Assembly: GCF_000024725.1 (NCBI RefSeq)
Contig: NC_013960.1
Coordinates: 890,261 to 954,260 of the forward strand
DNA: 64,000 nt
From: Nitrosococcus halophilus Nc 4
GTDB lineage: Bacteria > Pseudomonadota > Gammaproteobacteria > Nitrosococcales > Nitrosococcaceae
Direction: 5' to 3'
Shown here: positions 1,191 to 38,338 of the stretch, in pieces
How positions within the stretch are numbered: position 1 is the first letter of the stretch
Layout: each line of letters begins with the position of its first letter
The notes under the pieces: model-generated
Database searches by the model: none
Told to the model about the DNA's origin: nothing
What the model saw: only the letters and a program-made list of their open reading frames with translations
Translations under genes and position numbers: made by a program

Positions 1191-2927
1191 ATGGTGGGCA
1201 AGGTTCTCAAGCGGCGCCCCATTGACAACCCTGCATTGCCGGCGACGATCCATCCGGTATTGCGCCGAGTGTATCGGGCGCGGGGGATTAAGGCTCCGGG
1301 TGAGCTTGACTATGCCTTAGAACAGCTGCCCTCTCCTTGGTTGTTAAGTAATATTAAAACCGCAGTGGCCTTGTTGGCGGAGGCCCTGGAGCAGGGCTGG
1401 CGGATACTGGTGGTTGCCGATTTTGATGCTGATGGTGCCACCAGTTGTGCCCTGGCGGTGCGGGCGCTCCGCCTGATGGGGGCAGGGGAAGTGGATTATC
1501 TAGTGCCGAACCGGTTTATCCATGGCTACGGGTTGACCCCCGCCATCGTGGCGGAAGCCATGGCTCGGGGGCGGCCCGATCTAATCATTACCGTGGACAA
1601 TGGGATCTCCAGCATTGATGGTGTGCAAACGGCGCAAGAGGCCAATATCCGCGTGCTGGTTACGGATCATCACTTGCCAGGGTCGGTGCTGCCGGCTGCG
1701 GATGCCATCGTCAATCCTAATCTACCCGATGATCCCTTCCCGAGTGGTTGCCTGGCAGGAGTGGGGGTCATCTTTTATGTCATGTTGGCTTTACGGGCTT
1801 ACTTAAGGGAACAAGGGTGGTTTGCCCGATCAGGTCAGGGGGAACCCACCCTCGCGCCTTTGTTGGATTTGGTGACCTTGGGGACGGTGGCTGATGTGGT
1901 ACCGTTGGATCAGGTTAACCGAACCCTTGTCGCCCAAGGACTGGCTCGGATTCGTCGGCACCGTTGTTGTGTTGGCATTCAGGCCCTTGCCGCTTGCGCG
2001 CGGCGTTCCCTTGAAAATTTTACCACCAGCGACCTGGGTTTTGGGGTGGGGCCTCGGTTAAATGCCGCTGGACGTTTAGAGGACATGAGTCTGGGTATTG
2101 CTTGTCTGTTGACTGATTCCCCGGAGGTGGCCCAACAACAGGCCAGCGAGCTTGATGCGCTCAATCGAGAGCGGCGAGAGATCGAGTCAACCATGCAGAA
2201 TCAAGCGGCGATTCATCTGGAAAATCTGGTTTTTCCAGGAGAGGAAAAGGGACCCCTGGGCTATTGTTTATTTGATGAGTCTTGGCACCAGGGGGTCATC
2301 GGCCTGCTTGCTTCTCGAATCCGGGAGCAAGTCTACCGTCCGGTAATTGCCTTTGCCCCCCATGATAACGAGGAATTGAAAGGATCAGCCCGCTCTATTC
2401 CCGGCCTCCACATTCGCGATGCCTTAGATAGGGTGGCAACCTCCTATCCAGGCTTGCTGAGCAAATTTGGTGGCCATGCCATGGCCGCGGGTTTAAGTTT
2501 ACCACGGGTCCATTTGGAGCCCTTTCGGGCCGCTTTTTTGGAAGTGTTGGAGGCCCAGCTTGATGAGGAAACCCTGGAAGATGTTATTCTCAGCGATGGA
2601 GAATTAGATCGTTGGGACCTGGAGCTGGCTGAAACCTTGCGGGACGGGGGCCCCTGGGGGCAAGGATTCCCGGAACCGTTATTCGATGGGGTATTTTGGG
2701 TAGAAGGATTTCGACTTGTCGGCGAGGCGCACCTCAAGCTGACATTGACTACTCTCGGTAATCGCCAGCAATTGGAGGGGATCGCTTTTCGCTGCCTTCC
2801 CCCGGATTGGCTTGAGGTTGGCATGAAAATAAGACTTGCTTACCGGCTGGATGTCAATATATATCGGGATTTGCGCACCGTGCAATTGGTGGTGGAATAT
2901 TTGGAGCCGGTTGGGCGGGAAGCATGA
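1191..2927 (+). CDS. recJ: Single-stranded-DNA-specific exonuclease RecJ
   Basis: RecJ degrades single-stranded DNA 5' to 3' and acts in RecF-pathway recombination, mismatch repair and base-excision repair. The DHH-phosphoesterase motifs are visible: DFDADGATS near residue 85, VTVDNG-like and VTDHH further on, and a glycine-rich GGHAMAAGLS motif of the DHHA1 domain. A C-terminal OB-type domain follows. At 578 residues the length is normal. I prefer the ATG at 1191 over the TTG two codons upstream. The stop overlaps the nadK start by 4 bases, so recJ, nadK and recN look translationally coupled. Confidence 0.97.
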   Translation: MVGKVLKRRPIDNPALPATIHPVLRRVYRARGIKAPGELDYALEQLPSPWLLSNIKTAVALLAEALEQGWRILVVADFDADGATSCALAVRALRLMGAGEVDYLVPNRFIHGYGLTPAIVAEAMARGRPDLIITVDNGISSIDGVQTAQEANIRVLVTDHHLPGSVLPAADAIVNPNLPDDPFPSGCLAGVGVIFYVMLALRAYLREQGWFARSGQGEPTLAPLLDLVTLGTVADVVPLDQVNRTLVAQGLARIRRHRCCVGIQALAACARRSLENFTTSDLGFGVGPRLNAAGRLEDMSLGIACLLTDSPEVAQQQASELDALNRERREIESTMQNQAAIHLENLVFPGEEKGPLGYCLFDESWHQGVIGLLASRIREQVYRPVIAFAPHDNEELKGSARSIPGLHIRDALDRVATSYPGLLSKFGGHAMAAGLSLPRVHLEPFRAAFLEVLEAQLDEETLEDVILSDGELDRWDLELAETLRDGGPWGQGFPEPLFDGVFWVEGFRLVGEAHLKLTLTTLGNRQQLEGIAFRCLPPDWLEVGMKIRLAYRLDVNIYRDLRTVQLVVEYLEPVGREA

Positions 2928-3808
2928 TGGCAAGGCCTTTTAAAACGATAGGACTCATTGGCAAGCAAAAAGATCCTCAGATTACCGAGTCCTTGCAGCG
3001 GGTTGCCGATTTCCTGGTGGCGAAGGGACTGGAACTTATTATTGATCAGGATACGGCCACTCTCTTTCCCAGTCAGCATTGGCAGGCCGTGGCGCGTCAT
3101 GAGTTAGGCCAACGCTGTGATTTGGCTATTGTGGTGGGGGGGGACGGCACTTTACTCCATGCGGCCCGGAATCTAGCGGACTCGGGGATTCCTTTACTGG
3201 GTATTAAATTGGGTCGACTCGGATTTCTTGCTGATGTGTTGCCGGAAACCCTGGACACGGATTTGGCCCAGGTCTTGGAAGGGCAGTTCCGAGAAGAAGA
3301 ACGGTTCTTGATCCAGGCGGAACTAGAGCGTGAGGGAAAATCTTGCCTCATCGGTACGGCCCTAAATGATGTCACCATGCACATTCGAGAAGTGGTTCGC
3401 CTAATTGAGTTTGAGACTTATATCAACGGCCGCTTTCTCAATAGCCAGCGTTCTGATGGCCTGGTGGTCGCCACGCCGACCGGCTCCACCGCCTATGCGC
3501 TCTCTGCGGGGGGGCCCATACTGGATGTCAACCTCAACGCAATGGTGCTGGTTTCCATTTGCTCTCATGCCCTGAGTAATCGACCCCTTGTGATTGATGC
3601 CGATAGTGTGGTTGAAATCGTGATCAGTGAACACAATACCACGCCGGGCCAGGCCAGTTGCGATGGTCAACCTGGAATAGCATTGGGTGTGGGGGATAAG
3701 GTAAGGATATACAAACGGCCTGGTAGGGTTCGGCTGATTCATCCTGCGGCCCATGACCACTATTCTATTTTGCGTGCCAAGTTGCACTGGGGGCGAAAGC
3801 TTGAGTGA
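2924..3808 (+). CDS. nadK: NAD kinase
   Basis: Phosphorylates NAD to NADP using ATP or polyphosphate and so sets the cell's NADP supply. The diagnostic GGDGTLL motif (about residues 72-78), the NDV motif, and the glycine-rich ATPTGSTAYALSAGG segment that binds NAD are all present. The 294-residue length is typical. It overlaps recJ by 4 bases upstream and recN by 4 bases downstream (GTGA), an arrangement that points to one transcript. A second ATG directly follows the first and either could be used. Confidence 0.97.
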   Translation: MMARPFKTIGLIGKQKDPQITESLQRVADFLVAKGLELIIDQDTATLFPSQHWQAVARHELGQRCDLAIVVGGDGTLLHAARNLADSGIPLLGIKLGRLGFLADVLPETLDTDLAQVLEGQFREEERFLIQAELEREGKSCLIGTALNDVTMHIREVVRLIEFETYINGRFLNSQRSDGLVVATPTGSTAYALSAGGPILDVNLNAMVLVSICSHALSNRPLVIDADSVVEIVISEHNTTPGQASCDGQPGIALGVGDKVRIYKRPGRVRLIHPAAHDHYSILRAKLHWGRKLE

Positions 3809-11059: not shown

Positions 11060-11167
11060 TCACTGATCCTGGTTTCGCTTTCGCTCCTGAACGTAACTTG
11101 ACTCGGCCACGAGGGAGACAACGATGATGAATTCCAGACCTTTTCCGCTGGTGTCCGTCGGCTTCAT
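11060..11167 (-). pseudogene. Remnant N-terminus of a second type I restriction HsdR-like protein
   Basis: A 35-codon frame starts at ATG 11167, overlapping the hepT stop (ATGA). It reads MKPTDTSGKGLEFIIVVSLV followed by AESSYVQ. This strongly recalls the first residues of one HsdR subfamily (MKPTDTSEKGLE... AGYVQ, from memory). It then degenerates and stops at 11060. I read it as the surviving start of a lost hsdR gene once coupled to hepT. It is too short to be certain. Confidence 0.5.
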
Positions 11168-11520
11168 CTCTGATATGCCTCCCGGAGCGATTCCAACAGC
11201 GGCAGCAGGACGGGAACATCGTCCTGGATAATGCTCCACAGGGTATCGTCGTCGATGCCAAGGTAACCGTGAATCAGTCGGTTACGGGTGGCGATGATCA
11301 TCCGCCACGGAATTTCCGGATGTGCGGTTCTGATCTCATCCGGAATGTGGGTGGCCGCCTCGCCGATCAGCTCCAGGTTCCGCAGGGTGGCGTCGTAGTT
11401 AAGCCCACTTGCTACGAAAGCGGCCTGGTCGAGGCCGTCGGTATAGGTGAGCACCTTGCGGACGAACTCGATCATGTCATCGAGATAGAAGCGCCATTCC
11501 CGCATCGGTGCATTAGACAT
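11164..11520 (-). CDS. hepT: HepT-like ribonuclease toxin (HEPN, DUF86)
   Basis: A 118-residue HEPN protein of the DUF86/HepT family, the RNase toxin of MntA-HepT systems. The catalytic RX4HXY motif is intact: Arg79, His84 and Tyr86 in RNRLIHGY. The helical core contains LRNLELIGEAATHIP, also typical. Its ATG lies inside the end of the upstream antitoxin gene (8-base overlap), so translation is coupled. In characterised systems the MNT partner AMPylates the tyrosine of this motif to silence the toxin. Confidence 0.92.
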   Translation of the reverse strand: MSNAPMREWRFYLDDMIEFVRKVLTYTDGLDQAAFVASGLNYDATLRNLELIGEAATHIPDEIRTAHPEIPWRMIIATRNRLIHGYLGIDDDTLWSIIQDDVPVLLPLLESLREAYQR

Positions 11521-11803
11521 AGACCCGCTCCTTTTCGATATAGGGGCGCAACTCGGGGCGCAGGGCCTTCTCAGTGACCAGATCTACTGGACAGCCCAGC
11601 AGGTCTTCCAGATAGAACTGCACCCCGAAATAGCGCTTTGAGGTAGCTGGGCCGTCGAAGGCGACTAGGATATCCACATCGCTGCCGGCCTCTGCCGTAT
11701 CCCGTGCCGTCGAGCCGAACAAGGCCAGGTGGGTGACGCCAAAGCGGGCCTGCAACTCCGGCTTGCTTTGGGCCAGCAATTCAAGGGCGCGTTGTCGTTT
11801 CAT
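11513..11803 (-). CDS. mntA: MntA-like nucleotidyltransferase antitoxin
   Basis: A minimal nucleotidyltransferase of 96 residues. The catalytic motif is complete: FGSTARDTAEAGSDVDILVAF with Gly30-Ser31 and Asp42/Asp44. Such MNT proteins neutralise the HepT toxin encoded just downstream by AMPylating it. Gene order antitoxin-toxin with an 8-base overlap fits the family. It lies 32 bases after the hsdR stop on the same strand, so it may be the tail of the restriction operon. Confidence 0.92.
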   Translation of the reverse strand: MKRQRALELLAQSKPELQARFGVTHLALFGSTARDTAEAGSDVDILVAFDGPATSKRYFGVQFYLEDLLGCPVDLVTEKALRPELRPYIEKERVYV

Positions 11804-11835: not shown

Positions 11836-14800
11836 TTATACAGCCCAGCTCTCGGCCAACAACTCCGCCTGCTTCAGAATTGTCTCGGTTGCGGTCGCCT
11901 GCTTGTCTGGCGGGTAGCCATACTTGCGTAGAATCCGCTTGACGATCACCTTCAACTTGGAGCGTACGCTCTCCTTTACCGTCCAGTCGATGGTAGCGTT
12001 CTGCTTTACTTTCTCCACCAACTTCCGTGCGATCTCGCGCAACTGGTTATCGCCAAGCACCTGTACTGCGCTGTCATTCACTTCAAGGGCGTCATAGAAG
12101 GCCAGCTCATCCTCCGTTAGCCCCAGTTTTTCGCCTCGTCGATCCGCCTCCTTGATCTCCCTGGCCAGTTCGATCAGCTCTTCGATGATCCCGGCGGCCG
12201 ACAGCAGGTTGTTCTGATAGCGCTTGATGGCACTCTCCAGCATTTCGGACAATGCCCTGCTCTGCACCAGATTCTTTTTGGAGCGAACGCGAATCTCATC
12301 GTTGAGAATTTTCCTCAGCAGTTCCAGCGCCAGATTCCGATGCTGCATCCCTTTGATTTCCGCCATGAACTCATCGGAGAGAATGGAAATATCCGGCTTT
12401 TTGATCCCCGCCGCATCGAAGATGTCCACCACCTGATCGGAGACGACCGCCTCGTCTACCAACTGCCGAATAGCCGAATCCAGCTCTTCCTTGCTCTTGC
12501 CTTCGCCGCGCTCAAACTTGGCCAGCCGCGCCTTCACCGCCTGGAAAAAGGCGAGCTCGTCTTTGATGGCCATGGCCCGTTCATCCGGCACGGAGAGCGC
12601 AAACGCCTTCGCCAGCAAGTCGACCTCCTTCGAGAAACGCGCCTTGCCGTCCTCTAGAGCAAGAACGTACTCCTCTGCCTCCAGGATGATCGTCAGCTTG
12701 CCTGAGGTGTTTGCCCCGAAGTAGCGGCGGTAGTCAAATCCCGCCAGCATCTGTTGGACGACCTCGAATTTTTCCTGCATGGCGCGGACGGCATCATCAA
12801 TATCCAGCGTAGGCTGGCCCTTGCCGCCGCTCTCGGTATAGATCGCTAGCACCCGCTTCAGGTCGGAGGCGATCCCGATGTAGTCCACCACCAGCCCCCC
12901 CGGCTTGTCCTTATAGACCCGGTTCACGCGCGCGATGGCCTGCATCAGGTTGTGTCCCTTCATCGGCTTGTCCACGTAGAGGGTATGCAGGCAGGGCGCA
13001 TCGAAGCCGGTCAGCCACATATCCCGCACAATAACCAGCTTCAGCGGATCGCCCGGGTCCTTCAAACGCTCCCCAATCGCCTTCCGCGCCTCCTTGCTGC
13101 GGATGTGCGGCTGCATCGCCTGCGGGTCGGCACTGGAACCGGTCATGATCACCTTGATGGCACCCTGGGCATCGTCGTCGCTATGCCACCCAAGGCGTAG
13201 CGTAACGATGGCGTCGTAGAGTTCGACGCAGATGCGCCTGCTCATGGCGATGATTAGTCCTTTGCCGTCGAATATCTTCTGCCGCTCTTCAAAGTGCGCC
13301 ACCAGATCGCGGGCCACGTTCTCCACCCGTTGCCGATTGCCCACAATGGCCTCTAGCTGTGTCCATTTAGCCTTGGCTTTCTCGCTCAACTCGTCCTCAT
13401 CGCTGAACCCCGTTTCATAATCTGCAGCATCTTCCATGACCTGGTCGAAACGCTGATCCAGAGCCTCTTTCTCTTTTTCCTTTAACCGTACTTTGGCCAA
13501 TCGGCTCTCATAGTAGATGCGTACTGTCGCGCCATCCTCCACTGCCTGAGCGATGTCATAGACGTCCACATAATCGCCGAAAACGGCCGGAGTATTCTTG
13601 TCGTCCAGTTCCACCGGGGTGCCGGTAAAACCAATAAAGGTGGCATTGGGCAATGCGTCGCGCAGATACTTGGCGAAGCCGTAAGCGGTCTTCTTGCCGA
13701 CGATGTTGTCATCCGCATCCTTGATGTCCACCTCCTTGGCCTTGAACCCATACTGGCTGCGGTGGGCCTCGTCGGCGATCACCACGATATTGCGGCGGTC
13801 GGAAAGTAGCGGATAGATCGCCTCGCCATTCTTCGGCGAGAACTTCTGCATGGTGGTGAAGATAACTCCCCCCGAGGCCACCTTGAGCTTGTCGCGCAGG
13901 TCGTCCCGATTTTCTGCCTGCACTGGCTCCTGACGCAGTAATTGGCGACTGGCGGCGAAGGTATCGAAGAGCTGGTCGTCCAGATCGTTGCGATCAGTCA
14001 GCACCACGATGGTCGGGTTGTCCAATGCCAGCACCAGCTTGCCCGCATAGAAGACCATGGAGAGCGACTTGCCGCTGCCCTGCGTATGCCACACCACCCC
14101 GCCCTTGCGGCTGCCGTCCGTACCGGTAGCGTGCAGGGTCGATTCCACCGCCTTCTTCACCGCGTAGAACTGGTGATAAGCGGCAGTCTTCTTCACCGTC
14201 TCCACCGTTGTCAGCCCCGTCTTGGGGTCTTCCCGACGGGACTTCTCGAACACCGTAAAGTGGCGGATCAACTCCAGTAAGGTGGCGGGCTTCAATACAT
14301 CCTGAATCAGAGTCTCCAACTGCCCGACCCGGTGCGACGCCTCCTTCTTTCCATCCGTCGTCTTCCAGGCCATGAAGCGGCTGAAGCCAGCGGAAAGTGA
14401 CCCCATGCGCGCCTCCAGCCCGTCGGAAGCGACCAACAGCCCATTGGCCAAGAACAGACTGGGGATAGCATGCTTGTAGGTCTGGAGTTGTTCATAGGCA
14501 GAACGTACGGTGGCATTCTCGCTGGCGGCATTTTTCAACTCGACCACCACCAGGGGCAGGCCGTTGATGAACAGCACCAGGTCGGGCCGCTTGTTGACGT
14601 GCCCGTGGCCGGACTTGGTGGTGACGGTGAACTGATTCACTACCAGGCAATCGTTCGCCGCCGGATTGGCGAAGTCCACTAGCCAGACCTTGTCGCCCTT
14701 GGTCCGCCCTTCGTGCTGAAACTCCACCTCCACGCCATTGGTCAGGAGCCTATGAAAAGCTTCATTAGCCGCCAACAGCTCCCTAGTCGAGCCGGTCTCC

Positions 14801-15039
14801 ACGGCCAAGCGCAAGATTTCCTTGATTGCCTGCTCCTGAGCGTCCGGCGGGATCGTCGGATTTAGCCGTGCGACCGCATCCTGCAACCGGCCCACTAGGA
14901 ACTCATCGCCGAACGAGGGGCGCCCAGGGTTGGGCGCATCAGGGGCCAGATCGGCACCGTGGAGGTATTGGTAGCCCTGATTGGCCAGCAGCTCAATAGC
15001 CAGGTTCTCAATGGCCGATTCCGTCAACTTGTCCGACAC
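11836..15039 (-). CDS. hsdR: Type I restriction enzyme R subunit (HsdR)
   Basis: The motor and nuclease subunit of a type I restriction system: it translocates DNA with ATP and cuts unmodified DNA. It has an N-terminal PD-(D/E)xK nuclease (Asp153 in RPDLVLF, then VELK at 167-169), Walker A GSGKS at 321-325, and DEAH at 423-426. Further helicase motifs include GFTGTP and TGFDAP. A helical C-terminal domain follows that docks on the methylase. The 1067-residue length is full. It is separated from the preceding gene by 175 bases, the longest gap in the operon. Confidence 0.97.
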
Positions 15040-17427: not shown

Positions 17428-19065
17428 TTATGCCACCCGCAGTTCGCCGGACATCAGTTTGGGGAGGAGGGTGTCGCGCAATTTGCCCAAAACAGCCATT
17501 TCGCGGCTGTTTTGCAACAGTTTCGAGAAAAGAGGCTCGATAACCTCGTCGAATTTCTCCAACACTTCCTCATCCATAAACAGGAAATCCAACTCCTTGA
17601 TATCGCCTGAGTTGATACCGGGGATTGCGGCCTTGGCTCCACGGAAACGCAGCTCCTCAATAACGGGATAGCTGCTAAGCCAAAGGTAGAGGTAATTCTG
17701 ATAAGTCGGTTTCTTTGCCTGAAGCCGAAATACATGTTCATTGAGGCAGGCTGTTTCATATGGGAAACCACCGCCAAACATACTGATTCGTGCATCGAAA
17801 CGTCCCGGCTGACCACCGTCTTTGTAGATCAAAACGTCCCGGTCCTTAATGATTCCTCGGCGCATCTTCTCGAAGTATTCCTTCGGCACAAACTTGGTTT
17901 TTGAATAATCGTACTCGCCGATACGTGTGATGCTTTCAGCCCCGATGCTGGGCACCCCTTCAAAAAATTGGCCGACCCCGCCCTTTGGCCGGCTTCCTGT
18001 CTCAAGTTCGTCGATCAGTTCTTCAAGCTTGCCGACACGCCACCCCACCGGAATCTCCCCCAGTTCGGAGGGTTGCATCGCGCCGCCTGCCTGCCTTGTC
18101 TGGCCTGCGGCGTGTTCGCGCTGAAGCCACTTACGGCCAAACCCAGTCTTAAGCCATTGCTCGCGCTCAACCGCTAATTCTCTCGACTCGTACTGTTCCC
18201 AATGGAGGAAGCGGACCGGCTTATTGCCTTTGGTATATCGTGCCCCCTCTCCGCTCACGTGTTCATGCCATCGTTTGAGCAGGTTTCGGGTTTGGCCGAT
18301 AGACATCGCGCCATTTTCGCATTCCAATACATAGACGAAGAAAAGGCCGGACTGCGGCGCAGGCAAGCCGCCAAAAGATTTGTAGCCATATTGCATGAGG
18401 GAATCGTTGGGTTTACCTGCGCCTTTCAGCCATTGGGCTGAAAGGCAGGCAGGGAACTCGAACTCCACGAACCAGCGTTTGAACAGCGCCTGGGCGATGG
18501 CCTCCAGGGTGCGGTTCTGCTTGCGGTTGAGTTCGATCTTTTCGTCGAGGGAAGAGAGGATTTCGGCGATGGCCTCTTGTTCTTTTGGATCGCTAGGAAT
18601 CTCAAGCTCGATTTGCTTAATGCGCTCAGGTGAGGTATGCCTAACAGTTGATCCTGTTGCACTTCCAAGCACGTAGAATCGATATTCCCTTGAGCGCATC
18701 AGCCAATGAAGAAAGGCAGAAGAAACCTCATCGGACTTGACTAACACCAAGCCGATTCTCTGGTTGTGAAGCAGACGCTTTCCATCGAATTTTGGTACTA
18801 ATGCTGAATATCCGAGCGTATCTCCATCACGACTCAAGTCCGTCATAGTTACAATTAAATCACCCTCGGCCAAAACATATTCTTCTGGCACTTCACCTTC
18901 GAAGTATTTAAGTTTCGACGCCTTGAAGCCACCGCCGATCTCAAAATTGCCTGGCGTTACCAATACGTCATTGGTTTCTTTAGTAGTTATTTCTTTTCCG
19001 GGGAATGCATACCCGTGCTTAATTTCGAGTAACGAACCAAGAATTACCGGCCTCCAATCACTCAT
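17428..19065 (-). CDS. hsdS: Type I restriction S subunit with embedded GIY-YIG domain
   Basis: HsdS sets the DNA target of the complex. Residues 1-200 form target-recognition domain 1 and its conserved helix ([43 protein letters not shown], read in parts). Residues about 335-545 form domain 2, with [18 protein letters not shown] and a second helix ending in [16 protein letters not shown]. Between them, residues about 242-313 form a complete small GIY-YIG nuclease domain ([44 protein letters not shown]). The protein is 545 residues, longer than the usual 400-450. Start overlaps the hsdM stop (ATGA). Confidence 0.93.
18085..18454 (-). repeat. GIY-YIG-coding insert bounded by inverted GGCAGGCAGG motifs
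   Basis: The segment of hsdS that codes the extra GIY-YIG domain is bounded by GCCTGCCTGCC at 18085-18095 and GGCAGGCAGGG at 18444-18454. These are 10-bp inverted copies. Just inside the second lies a perfect 11-bp palindrome arm pair, GCCTTTCAGCC (18421-18431) and GGCTGAAAGGC (18436-18446), with a 4-base loop. At the other edge CGCCGC (18081) pairs with GCGGCG (18107). The reading frame stays open throughout. Whether the boundaries are true element ends is inference. Confidence 0.55.
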
Positions 19066-20621
19066 ACCCCAAACCCCACCTTCGCCAGATTTTCCCGAAT
19101 CCGAGCATCCAGCGCCTGGCCCTGCGCCATCTGCGCGGCCAGTTCTTCGGTGAGCTTAGTCATCTTCTCCTCAAACGGCACGCCGTCGTCCTCCTCGTCG
19201 GGTATGCCTACATAGCGCCCCGGCGTCAGCACGTGCTTGTGCTTGCGAACGTCCTCCAAGGTCGCAGCCTTGCAGAAGCCCTTAACGTCCTCATAACCGC
19301 CGTCCTTGTTACGCCAAGCGTGGTAGGTGTCGGCGATGCGGGCGATGTCTTCATCGGAGAAGTCCCGGTTACGCCGGGTAATCATCTGGCCCAGGTTGCG
19401 AGCATCGATGAAAAGGATTTCGTCCTCGCGGTTGCGGAAATTGTGGTTGCGCCGGTCGTGGGAGATGAACCAGAGGCAGGCGGGAATGCCCGTGTTGTAA
19501 AAGAGCTTGTCCGGCAGGGCGACGATGCAGTCCACCAGCTTGGCCTCGATAATGGCCTTGCGGATCTCCCCCTCGCCGCCGCTGTTGGAGGAGAGCGAGC
19601 CGTTGGCGAGCACCAGCCCCAGGGTGCCGTTGGGGGCAAGGTGGTAGATCATGTGCTGCATCCAGGCAAAGTTGGCGTTGCCCACGGGGGGCACGCCGAA
19701 CTGCCAGCGGGGGTCGTCGCGCAGCAGCTCGCCGGACCAATCGGAGTCGTTGAAAGGTGGGTTGGCGATGATGTACTCGGCCTTCATGTCCTTATGGGCG
19801 TCGTTGAGGAAGCTGCCTTCGCCGTTCCAGCGCACATTGGAGCCGTCGATACCGCGAATGGCCAGGTTCATACGGCAGAGGCGGTAGGTGGTTTGGTTGG
19901 ATTCCTGGCCGTAGATGGAGATGTCGTCGATGCGCCCCTGGTGGACCTCGACGAACTTCTCGGACTGGACGAACATGCCGCCGGAGCCGCAGCAGGGGTC
20001 GTAGACCCTTCCTTTGTAGGGCTCCAGCATGTTGACCAGCAGCTTGACGATGGCCGCCGGGGTGTAGAACTGGCCGCCCTTCTTGCCCTCGGCGGCGGCG
20101 AATTCGCCGAGAAAATATTCATAGACCCGGCCGAGGATGTCCCGGCTGCGGGCGGTGGCGTCGCCCAGGCCGATCTTGCCGAGCAGATCGATCAGCGCTC
20201 CCAGGCTGGCCTTGTCCAGGTTCTGGCGGGCGTACTGCTTGGGCAGCACGCCTTTCAGGGTAGGGTTCTCCTTCTCGATGGCTTCCATGGCCTCGTCCAC
20301 ATCCTTGCCGATCCCAGGCAGTTTGGCGCGAGCCTGGAGATAGGACCAGCGAGCGCCCTCGGGGACAAAGAAGACGTTTTCGGCACGGTACTCGTCGGCA
20401 TCCTCCGGGTCGGCCCCGGCGTATTCGCCCAACCCTTCGGATAATTTGGCGTGCAGCTCTTCGAAGGCATCGGAGATGTACTTGAGGAAGATCAGGCCGA
20501 GGACGACGTGCTTGTACTCGGCGGCGTCCATGTTCTTGCGCAGCCTGTCGGCGCTCTTCCAGAGGCTCTTTTGCAGGGGTTCCTCAGTTTTTTTCGGGGT
20601 TTTGTCGGCGGTCTTGGCCAT
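19062..20621 (-). CDS. hsdM: Type I restriction M subunit, N6-adenine methyltransferase (HsdM)
   Basis: Methylates adenines in the recognition site to protect host DNA. It has the N-terminal helical domain ([23 protein letters not shown]), SAM-binding motif DPCCGSGGM, and the catalytic NPPF motif. The chosen start is the ATG at 20621 ([11 protein letters not shown]), which gives 519 residues; an in-frame extension to 20681 lacks family character. The gene looks more GC-rich than its neighbours, with long open frames on the opposite strand, in keeping with transfer. It overlaps hsdS by 4 bases. Confidence 0.96.
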
Positions 20622-20649
20622 GGGTCGATGATTCCTTCTTAATTTCCGC

Positions 20650-20826
20650 TCAGCGGGACGTGGGTTTCTTATCCAGGGCAACGCCGTGGCGACCGCAATA
20701 ATCGCGGATCATCACCTCGATCATGTTCGCCAGGCTGCGCCGCTCCTGTTCGGCAACGGTTCGCAGCCCCTCCTTGACGGCCGGATGGATACGGACGGTC
20801 AAGGTCATGGATTTGGTTTTTGTCAT
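20650..20826 (-). CDS. Small ribbon-helix-helix-type DNA-binding protein
   Basis: A 58-residue protein that starts at the ATG at 20826 ([20 protein letters not shown]). The short strand MTLTVRIH followed by helix-turn-helix [28 protein letters not shown] (in parts) is the classical RHH/Arc-MetJ pattern with a basic face. It ends 28 bases before hsdM and is the first gene of the restriction operon. I infer it could autoregulate the operon or be an orphan antitoxin. No RNase/RelE-type partner lies next to it. Confidence 0.8.
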
Positions 20827-36739: not shown

Positions 36740-36991
36740 TTTTGAATGAGTGGGTTGGCTCAACCAGCCTCAGCCCTCCTGCCTGCAGCCTGCCTGCAGC
36801 AGGCAGGCAGGCAGGTCGGGGCTACGGTCGAAAGTGAAGAGAAATCGACTCACCCTAGGGTGCATCTCCCAGCCCTAGGCTCTGAGGTCAAAATCGAACT
36901 AGCACATTGCGGCAAGTGTGCGAACGATGAGACTGAACGACCTTTCGATTCTTTGGCGAGGGAACCTTAACTTTTAGAGTAGCGAAAGCTA
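36740..36991 (+). ncRNA. IscB-associated omega RNA (HEARO)
   Basis: Non-coding RNA expected immediately upstream of IscB genes. The stretch before the ATG shows conserved HEARO features: an AGCCC (36772) / GGGCT (36819) stem enclosing a long GCAGG hairpin; the block CACCCTAGGGTGCATCTCCC; the CCTAGGCTCTGAGGTC segment; and the 3' end GAGGGAACCTTAACTTTT followed by AGTAGCGAAAGCT, just before the start codon. In studied IscB systems this RNA carries a guide at its 5' end and directs DNA cleavage. The exact 5' end is uncertain. Confidence 0.8.
36778..36815. repeat. GCAGG hairpin repeat, copy within omega RNA
   Basis: CCTGCCTGCAG occurs twice in tandem here (36778-36799), then CAGGCAGGCAGGCAGG (to 36815), forming a long stem that lies within the omega RNA. 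The same sequence, without the 11-bp tandem unit, recurs just after iscB at 38312-38338, both preceded by CCCT. Confidence 0.7.
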
Positions 36992-38275
36992 ATGAATAGC
37001 GTTTTTGTATTAGACACTGATAAAACACCGCTGATGCCGTGTAGGCCATCAAGGGCTAGGCGGTTATTACGGGATGGGAGGGCCGCGGTTTTTAGGATGC
37101 AGCCCTTTACGGTCATCCTGAAATACCGGGTTGTCCCCACCCCTCAGCCGGTTGAATTTAAGGTTGATCCGGGCAGCAAAACCACGGGCATGGCCCTAGT
37201 CGGTCATTTCTCTGTGCAGGGACGCGTCGTGCTGTGGGCCGCCAATCTAATGCATAGAGGGCAATCCGTGCGCGATAGGTTAGAGAGGCGCCGCCTATTG
37301 CGCCGAGGCCGCAGAGGCAGAAAGACCCGCTATCGCGCCCCCCGGTTTTTAAATAGAACTCGCCCTCAAGGCTGGCTAGCGCCTTCGCTGCGATCACGGG
37401 TGGAGAACGTCTCGACTTGGTTTAACCGCTTACTCGATAGAGCGCCCATTTCAGCATGCCATATTGAGACCGTGCGTTTTGACTTGCAGAAGATTCAAAA
37501 CCCTGAAATTAGCGGCGTTGAGTATCAGCAAGGGGAATTACAAGGTTATGAAGTGCGTGAATATGTGCTGGAGAAATGGGGCAGAAAGTGCGCTTATTGC
37601 CATAAGACAAATATCCCGCTAGAGATTGAGCACCTTGTTCCTCGATCAAGAGGGGGTAGCCATCGGGTATCTAATTTAACCTTGGCCTGTACGCCCTGCA
37701 ACCAAAAGAAGAATAGTAAAACGGCGGCTGAGTTTGGCTATCCGCACCTGCAAACGAAAGCTAATCAGCCCTTGAAAGACGCCGCCGCGGTCAACGCCAC
37801 CCGCTACGCCATCGGGCGCGCTATTCAGTCCATAGGGCTGCCGACTTCTTTTTGGAGTGGCGGCAGAACCAAGAAAAACCGACTCTCTCAAGGCTATGCC
37901 AAGGACCATTGGATAGATGCGGCCTGTGTCGGTGAAAGTGGCGAGCAAGTGACCCTCGCCGAAGGTGATCGCCCGCTGCAAATAAAAGCCACGGGACGCG
38001 GCACGCGGCAAGTTGTCAGAACTGATAAATATGGTTTCCCACGGGGCAAGGCGGGACGCTGTAAGCGAGTGAAGGGATTTCAAACGGGTGATCGGGTAAG
38101 ACTCATTCAGCCCAAAGGCAAGTATGAGGGCGCACACACCGGAATACTGGCGGGCATCCGGGCTAACGGCGTCTTTGATATCAAGGCCAAGGCCGGAAAG
38201 ATCTCGGCCAACTGGAAAAATTTCAAACTAATCCAAAGAGGAGAGGGTTATGACTACGGCCTTTCGGCTGTCTGA
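36992..38275 (+). CDS. iscB: IscB RNA-guided endonuclease (HNH-RuvC, OMEGA effector)
   Basis: A 427-residue ancestor-type relative of Cas9. In order: PLMP domain (DKTPLMPCRPSRARRLL, residues 10-27), RuvC-I (DPGSKTTG, Asp59), Arg-rich bridge helix (residues 97-115), RuvC-II (HIETVRFDLQ, Glu159), HNH (zinc Cys200/203 and Cys233/236; EIEHLVPRSRGG with His214; Asn228), RuvC-III (KDHWIDA, His306 and Asp309), then a C-terminal domain that probably binds RNA and the target-adjacent motif. All catalytic residues are present, so it looks active. It lies directly 3' of its omega RNA. No TnpA is next to it. Confidence 0.95.
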   Translation: MNSVFVLDTDKTPLMPCRPSRARRLLRDGRAAVFRMQPFTVILKYRVVPTPQPVEFKVDPGSKTTGMALVGHFSVQGRVVLWAANLMHRGQSVRDRLERRRLLRRGRRGRKTRYRAPRFLNRTRPQGWLAPSLRSRVENVSTWFNRLLDRAPISACHIETVRFDLQKIQNPEISGVEYQQGELQGYEVREYVLEKWGRKCAYCHKTNIPLEIEHLVPRSRGGSHRVSNLTLACTPCNQKKNSKTAAEFGYPHLQTKANQPLKDAAAVNATRYAIGRAIQSIGLPTSFWSGGRTKKNRLSQGYAKDHWIDAACVGESGEQVTLAEGDRPLQIKATGRGTRQVVRTDKYGFPRGKAGRCKRVKGFQTGDRVRLIQPKGKYEGAHTGILAGIRANGVFDIKAKAGKISANWKNFKLIQRGEGYDYGLSAV

Positions 38276-38311: not shown

Positions 38312-38338
38312 CCTGCCTGCAGCAGGCAGGCAGGCAGG
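38312..38338. repeat. GCAGG hairpin repeat, copy after iscB
   Basis: CCTGCCTGC and GCAGGCAGG form a 9-bp stem around a single A, followed by further GGCAGG units. It sits 37 bases after the iscB stop and repeats the hairpin found in the omega RNA. It could act as a terminator-like structure or mark the right end of the IscB element. Confidence 0.7.

Follow-up and report, generated by a model that had tools for sequence, protein, structure and literature searches.

The type I restriction gene hsdS in the window (the whole 64,000-nucleotide stretch of DNA that was analysed) contains an in-frame insert that is quite probably a decaying copy of a minimal mobile element. We describe this element as one GIY-YIG domain with inverted-repeat ends that inserts precisely and in frame without splicing, that would owe its mobility to its nuclease, and that would have given rise to short palindromes as non-autonomous derivatives. 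Comparison of the copies shows precise in-frame insertion, shared ends, repeated occupation and conservation of the nuclease. Relatives of the insert are fitted just as cleanly into defence genes, and into other genes, of bacteria that are only very distantly related, which suggests a little-known type of jumping gene. If this reading is true, whole folded domains have a way into other proteins that needs no splicing, and this route is concentrated in bacterial immune genes.

The GIY-YIG insert of the window HsdS

The host gene hsdS encodes a type I specificity subunit of 545 aa (17428-19065, minus strand). It adjoins hsdM (19062-20681, minus strand; ORF and Pfam), in which site comparison finds the insertion site empty, and lies near hsdR of the same type I system (11836-15039, minus strand; ORF and Pfam). 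A HepT-like/nucleotidyltransferase gene pair adjoins hsdR at 11164-11803. The original prediction of an HsdS with an in-frame GIY-YIG domain between its two recognition domains is confirmed by the ORF, Pfam, AlphaFold and Foldseek, and the chain has the two target-recognition domains with helical spacers between them that characterize type I HsdS. Pfam places Methylase_S at residues 1-188 (E 1.3e-16), in the first half only, and GIY-YIG at residues 243-308 (E 4.7e-11). The AlphaFold model, built from an alignment of 35 window and locus sequences, has a mean pLDDT of 86 and a pTM of 0.75, with ten-residue means of 91-97 over residues 241-310 and 86 over 311-320, and with residues 206-232 below 50. 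Foldseek matched HsdS structures (1yf2 and others) along the chain with a best E of 3.7e-20. Modelling the fold, which had been proposed as a check, yielded a predicted GIY-YIG fold that Foldseek matched to 1zg2 (UPF0213 BH0048; E 3.8e-3, 33% identity) and weakly to Slx1 chains (E 0.12-0.77). A profile of the insert family found 1zg2 (2.4e-15) and 1ywl (2.8e-14) as its best matches among PDB sequences, and profile and fold together place the insert in the GIY-YIG superfamily. Unlike the window insert, the UPF0213 and Slx1 nucleases are not inserted elements. An AlphaFold model of a filled HsdM was poor (mean pLDDT 52, 8 sequences in the alignment) and was not relied on.

Two inverted 10-bp motifs, GGCAGGCAGG at 18086-18095 (minus strand) and at 18444-18453 (plus strand), had been taken as the edges of one insert spanning 18085-18454. 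The motifs are real and fall inside a perfect 12-nt inverted repeat (18086-18097 / 18442-18453), but they do not bound a single insert. The GIY-YIG element has its right end at 18086-18097, and the outer arm of a separate hairpin of 38 nt occupies 18444-18453; the segment 18085-18454 joins these two units. The element itself covers 282 nt or ~94 codons (18086-18367, minus strand) and encodes LPAPQSG...RQAG, limits that were set by comparison with other copies and with exact empty HsdM sites; the unit used as search query was 18082-18366. Its coding strand, from ~18367 to 18086, reads CTTGCCTGCGCCGCAG...GACAAGGCAGGCAGG, with the left end CTTGCCTGCGCCG at about 18355-18367 and the right end AAGGCAGGCAGG at 18086-18097, both on the minus strand. 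The element edge inside HsdS is uncertain by about 3 nt because GGC codons are repeated. The ends are imperfect inverted repeats, and both a start codon and splicing features are absent.

The 38-nt hairpin (18416-18453, minus strand) sits in frame upstream of the element within hsdS, giving the order FEFP[hairpin]GKPN..YKSFGG[element]. It resembles a mini-element in reverse orientation, with arms CCTGCCTGC / GCGCAGG that resemble the element ends read oppositely. The perfect 11-bp palindrome reported at one edge is present within this hairpin, at 18421-18431 / 18436-18446. A hairpin occupies this position in three other HsdS loci too (L085, L087 and L093), with stems that have changed yet still pair. 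There is no hairpin at that place in the empty, plasmid-borne HsdS L270 and L271; L271 reads FEFPNGAGEPYKSSGGEMVESELG over this part of the protein and L270 is likewise empty.

Among 24 aligned inserts, the YIG tyrosine is found in 23 and the other key positions are invariant in all 24. The sole exception is the window copy, which has a serine at HsdS residue 255 (codon 18301-18303, minus strand), leaving it without the complete catalytic residues of an active GIY-YIG enzyme, among which we take the YIG tyrosine to belong. Additionally, the left end of the window copy has a better pairing partner than its own right end in 21 of the 22 right ends taken from other copies. Because the tyrosine is missing and the ends pair badly, the window insert is best read, from its sequence, as a decaying copy. 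In the family as a whole, 77 insert pairs had dS<2; the median dN/dS was 0.22 over those of them with dS > 0.05, and 0.06 for the L105/L275 pair, values obtained by simple counting from non-independent pairs of which most have dS > 0.9. On these estimates the GIY-YIG insert domain is under purifying selection.

Copies of the element and their host genes

The family comprises 29 distinct copies that share the reading frame of a host ORF (one copy, L115, being degenerate) and four broken or short copies, spread over many phyla. Hosts of the 29 are HsdM (9), HsdS (7), HsdR (5), the HmaB/DUF1156 methylase (3), HmaA- or DrmD-like helicases (2), and one each of TrmD, a RibD_C (RibD-like) protein and a PD-(D/E)XK protein. 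Defence proteins make up 26 of the 29 by Pfam, PADLOC or alignment, several HsdM and the L093 HsdS being assigned by alignment only. Inserts at 24 loci are 47-65% identical to that of the window. The suggestion that a mobile intragenic element entered the gene and left its frame intact is thus well supported: a search for further in-frame copies in unrelated genes found them in other phyla (HsdM, HsdR, HmaB, TrmD, RibD-like and others), most copies have the same DNA ends, and exact empty sites exist in HsdM.

These copies come from several searches. Of 95 near genomes, the window's own included, 19 match the query at E<=1e-10, two of them solely via a separate small GIY-YIG ORF, and the domain is absent from all 14 HsdS ORFs inspected among these 19. 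In Gammaproteobacteria, 133 of 369 genomes have a GIY-YIG match at E<=1e-6, and the best two matches after the window are in frame, in HsdS (L056) and HsdM (L057). A species-genome collection was scanned with patterns drawn from five seeds, of which three lie in hsdS or hsdM; there were 146 hits to the patterns, and 42 loci in many phyla were confirmed. Thirty-two of these were examined individually (L116-L125 were left out), with 25 in frame within a longer host ORF, one with an internal stop and six small ORFs. A profile search at E<=1e-24 found two of 379 Patescibacteria (G432, TrmD; G817, RibD-like) and six of 297 Thermodesulfobacteriota, including a broken copy (G927) and a short ORF (G955), with both counts including an already known centre genome (G432 and G434, respectively). 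The total of 29 is made up of the 25 scan copies, the window and four profile-search copies, less one near duplicate (L088, a near copy of L086). Also excluded are L104 (internal TAG), L277 (internal TAA), L155 (4-nt frameshift to its host) and L278 (short ORF). Two weak copies are counted: L115, with a garbled domain in a host ORF of 183 aa in which the upstream HsdM motif NPPF was not found, and L274, with a host ORF of 248 aa and a Pfam match confined to the part after the insert. Apart from short chance matches, neither DNA nor protein comparison found a second copy in the genome to which the window belongs. Viral contigs gave 216 pattern hits of which none was confirmed, and matches in plasmids (5 records) and phages (22 records) were all below 45% identity.

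The TrmD that hosts a copy still passes the NCBI TrmD cut-offs, and its contig bears a 16S rRNA gene. This gene (L089, 950-1957) is the TrmD of a Spechtbacteria MAG; the insert lies just before a normally conserved loop, which reads DDMAYGGISGM as compared with DD..YGGGxGM in relatives.

The sense frame is used in 29 of 33 copies, which has a probability of 5e-19 if one frame in 6 is allowed and 1e-10 if one in 3. Random insertion would be very unlikely to give such a bias, but the excess could arise solely through selection against broken genes.

The large share of defence genes brings up a different explanation, namely that restriction and other defence proteins took up the GIY-YIG domain for the nuclease activity that it adds, and that selection for defence has kept it there. 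The 26 of 29 hosts that are defence proteins keep this explanation alive for copies other than that of the window, and purifying selection on the domain is also in its favor. The defence share exceeds what a neutral inserter would be expected to give, though three of the five search seeds came from hsdS or hsdM. Defence genes also travel, and may tolerate insertions better. We nevertheless consider such recruitment unlikely, as the insertion points differ among host families, the hosts include TrmD, RibD-like and PD-(D/E)XK proteins, the ends carry inverted repeats at the DNA level and exact empty sites exist. Additionally, nuclease-free mini-elements occur in similar genes, and the window copy is without the YIG tyrosine. 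The specific proposal of a functional fusion that adds nicking activity to the type I enzyme is left unsupported by the varied hosts and positions, by these minis and by the state of the window copy.

Ends, target sites and repeated occupation

Both ends are strict (CCTGCGCC on the left and GGCAGGCAGG on the right) in 21 of 29 copies; L095, L115 and L274 have one small change, while the ends of L087, L096, L098, L099 and L107 are diverged or unrecognisable. The inverted repeats, CCTGCCTGCGCCG... / ...CGGCAGGCAGG, are imperfect and their asymmetry is fixed, with CTGCGCC on the left and CGGCAGG on the right. At the HsdM site the empty sequence is GACGACGGC (GACGA^CGGC) and the filled one is GACGA[element]CGGC, the target being neither shortened nor lengthened; the target-site duplication typical of MITEs is thus absent there. 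The HsdM inserts are 282 nt in eight of nine cases and 300 nt in L101, and the flanks of L101 are 87.7% identical to those of the close empty locus L210 over 300 nt on the left and 85.4% identical over 103 nt on the right. Over 15 non-redundant sites, positioned by taking CCTGCC...GGCAGG as the unit, the target consensus is G (12/15), A or G (15/15), the insertion, and C (12/15).

The two ends of a copy co-vary. Own inner ends pair at a mean of -17.96 kcal/mol as compared with -15.64 (sd 0.55) for swapped ends, a difference reached in none of 20,000 permutations over 23 copies, with energies computed outside the constant nine bases and with permutations that ignore relatedness among copies. 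When only one HsdM copy was kept (15 copies), one of 20,000 permutations was as good. At the level of single copies, the pairing in 8 of the 23 is at best equal to that of about half of the swapped ends, and L087, L108, L115 and the window pair poorly. Examples of co-varying ends are GCCGCGACGC/GCGTCGCGGC in L105 and GCCGCAACGC/GCGTTGCGGC in L106, and many of the changes, as judged by eye, fall at wobble positions.

As with homing elements, the same empty site has been occupied repeatedly in HsdM. In a tree of nine filled and 27 empty rows (35 different), which includes two filled rows that are fragments (L097 and L115) and which does not separate gains from losses, the filled label needs six changes. 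At least five changes between filled and empty are forced by well-supported branches, the filled rows do not form one clade, and the filled label is somewhat clustered (17 of 500 shuffles were as low). An HsdM-like hit at E<=1e-60 is found in 73 of 369 gammaproteobacterial genomes. Of 30 such loci examined, that of G103 is filled and the 27 others in which the site is readable are empty (27 of 29; L217 and L230 end before the site or lack it). TrmD gives a similar picture, with a hit in 142 of 145 Patescibacteria and with all 25 other loci that could be read at the site being empty (25 of 29 readable). GIY-YIG homing endonucleases such as I-TevI reside in introns or in free-standing genes. The element described here resembles them in tying a GIY-YIG nuclease to repeated invasion of one site, but translation of its nuclease follows the host frame, and copies occupy many genes.

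A sharp in-frame insertion in conserved genes, a homing-type nuclease and one recurrently occupied site would also be expected of a spliced element, either an intein or an intron whose frame is open by chance. We regard this as very improbable. Inteins depend on well-known splice residues, whereas the insert begins with LPAP and ends with RQAG; with no splice-junction residues and no splicing domain in the model, in which a GIY-YIG fold is all that is seen, an intein was rejected. A group I or group II intron was also rejected, as there was no Rfam match in the window at 17-20 kb at E up to 1. No Rfam introns were found at gathering score in nine element loci. From these features we argue that the element is not spliced.

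A variation at the ends is seen in L155, the HsdR of G434: here the left end (~1490-1510 of the reverse complement) contains a third CTGC unit in addition to the usual two, and the element is 4 nt out of frame with HsdR. Slippage of such an end repeat could switch a host gene off and on.

Palindromic mini-forms and the putative mode of movement

The palindrome pattern CCTGCCTGC-N0-12-GCAGGCAGG occurs in 13 of 29 genomes searched, while a reversed-pattern control gave none in all 29. The positive genomes are G000, nine of 23 with an in-frame element and three of five with only a small-ORF relative. The palindromes are ~19-39 bp in size, most being 19- or 20-mers. The 29- and 30-mers such as CCTGCCTGCGCCGAGGCTTCGGCAGGCAGG, found in G432, G433, G434 and G440, correspond to the asymmetric ends of the element joined together. 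As in MITEs, the 30-mers (CCTGCCTGCGCCG..CGGCAGGCAGG) have terminal inverted repeats in common with a fuller element, the autonomy of which is putative. No target duplication was visible by eye when the 30-mer in HsdM of L189 was compared with other HsdM.

Minis lie in frame in HsdM, HsdR and HmaB, and those inside recognisable genes are 30, 33, 36 or 39 nt. For example, HsdM of G433 reads KKNG[PACAAGAAGR]RFRDRRG, HsdM of G434 reads MAKENNN[LPAPSLRQAG]GANLGF and an HsdR reads FFPTDSED[LPAPGAARQAG]QHPLLSD, with others present in both orientations. Because the scanned loci were picked for having an element or a palindrome, mini counts by gene do not measure preference. One type I locus in G434 (contig C82; L091, L155 and L207) has a full and a mini element in HsdM and also in HsdR. 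In the HmaB genes of L105, L106 and L275 the full element is accompanied by a 36-bp mini; the three minis share one upstream site and the opposite orientation, but their loops differ.

Our claims on palindromes are limited to the insert family and do not extend to the GIY-YIG superfamily at large. Flanks of stand-alone GIY-YIG genes contain palindromes with arms of at least 10 in 6 of 80 cases as compared with 10 of 800 random pieces, with two of the six flanks coming from the same genome (L058 and L110). An CCTGCCTGCC-type palindrome precedes L109, L110, L113 and L125. Within Thermodesulfobacteriota the palindrome occurs in 30 of 281 genomes, in three of six with the element versus 27 of 275 without it (one-sided Fisher p 0.018).

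That the palindrome occurs where no element was detected weakens the claim that the GIY-YIG nuclease moves palindromes. The palindromic ends may instead come from a distinct REP/MITE family whose movement depends on some other enzyme (a Y1 transposase, for example), with the GIY-YIG domain a passenger caught between palindromes. There are 130 palindrome copies in G440, which has one element copy, and 120 in G903, in which no element was detected. In the window, an IscB gene (NCBIfam equivalog; 36992-38275, plus strand) has CCTGCCTGCAGCAGGCAGGCAGGCAGG-type palindromes on both sides (~36776-36815 and 38312-38338) that resemble the mini-forms of the element; of the six copies of GGCAGGCAGG in the window, where 0.26 are expected, four are at 36.8 and 38.3 kb. 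Ends with a fixed asymmetry that co-vary within copies, and a conserved domain under purifying selection, speak against a passenger, and we consider this explanation rather doubtful, if less so than recruitment for defence.

We favor instead a mobile element that moves by means of its own nuclease. Purifying selection on the domain, together with the pairing of the ends, suggests the nuclease and a hairpin or cruciform of the ends as the working parts, and we infer that the nuclease is the mobility enzyme. Insertion would take place at sites like GR^CGG, would be exact and would leave no target duplication. The element would persist because it reads through in the host frame, and the host protein would presumably carry the nuclease as one of its domains, with no splicing involved. 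The weak fold kinship to Slx1 suggests action on branched or hairpin DNA of the ends: the Slx1-like nuclease most likely nicks or cuts either the target DNA or a branched structure formed by the ends, and repair at the cut would copy the element in. The ~19-39 bp palindromes of joined ends would be its non-autonomous derivatives. More broadly, we propose a new class in which a single GIY-YIG domain with inverted-repeat ends transposes into coding sequence, in frame without splicing, and is expressed only within the host protein. Such an element would also mobilise protein-coding palindromes of ~19-39 bp that are not autonomous, and defence genes would be its main reservoir. This wider proposal is a plausible one, with the balance tipping slightly against it.

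Titles and abstract openings of the open-access literature gave no description of this element family. The nearest precedents, as far as the available texts describe them, are the palindromic elements of Rickettsia and the ShiLan insertion of phages. The Rickettsia elements (Ogata 2000, 2002, via PMC10969869, PMC2996958) are palindromic too, and they keep the frame of the unrelated protein-coding genes that they occupy, as a rule in segments that are not structured. They differ in being about 150 bp and in encoding a conserved peptide, with no nuclease and no mobility enzyme named in the available parts of these sources, which mention similar elements only for Wolbachia and Methanocaldococcus. 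Our minis are in-frame palindromic coding elements of this kind, a likeness by description and not by sequence comparison. Knowledge of protein-coding palindromes in Rickettsia genes dates from 2000, and their contribution to protein evolution is called unexplored in the portion available of PMC10969869. Since the palindromes described here have ends in common with a nuclease-encoding partner, the mover of such elements becomes testable in a laboratory strain. The ShiLan domain of phage DNA methylases, as presented in the accessible text of PMC11855218, is likewise an insertion in a methylase gene that keeps the host frame without a stop, has no intein or intron features, has a disjunct distribution and encodes a nuclease. 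Its nuclease is HNH, out of frame and with its own GTG start, whereas that of the element is GIY-YIG and in the host frame; the terms "inverted repeat" and "GIY-YIG" have no occurrences in that accessible text. REP/REPIN sequences with RAYT resemble the element in being short dispersed palindromes with a dedicated enzyme, but in the descriptions available they are extragenic, rely on a tyrosine transposase and have a GTAG or CGTC tag, whereas the element is in genes and has GIY-YIG.

Other in-frame repeat peptides were also observed. The HsdS spacer of L272 contains FDFAQGKPNEDD, L114 has a PEPVEG repeat peptide before its GIY-YIG ORF (~2900-3001) and the HsdM of L217 has a tandem QPVGAGLVPA. 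These peptides hint at further repeat families in such genes.
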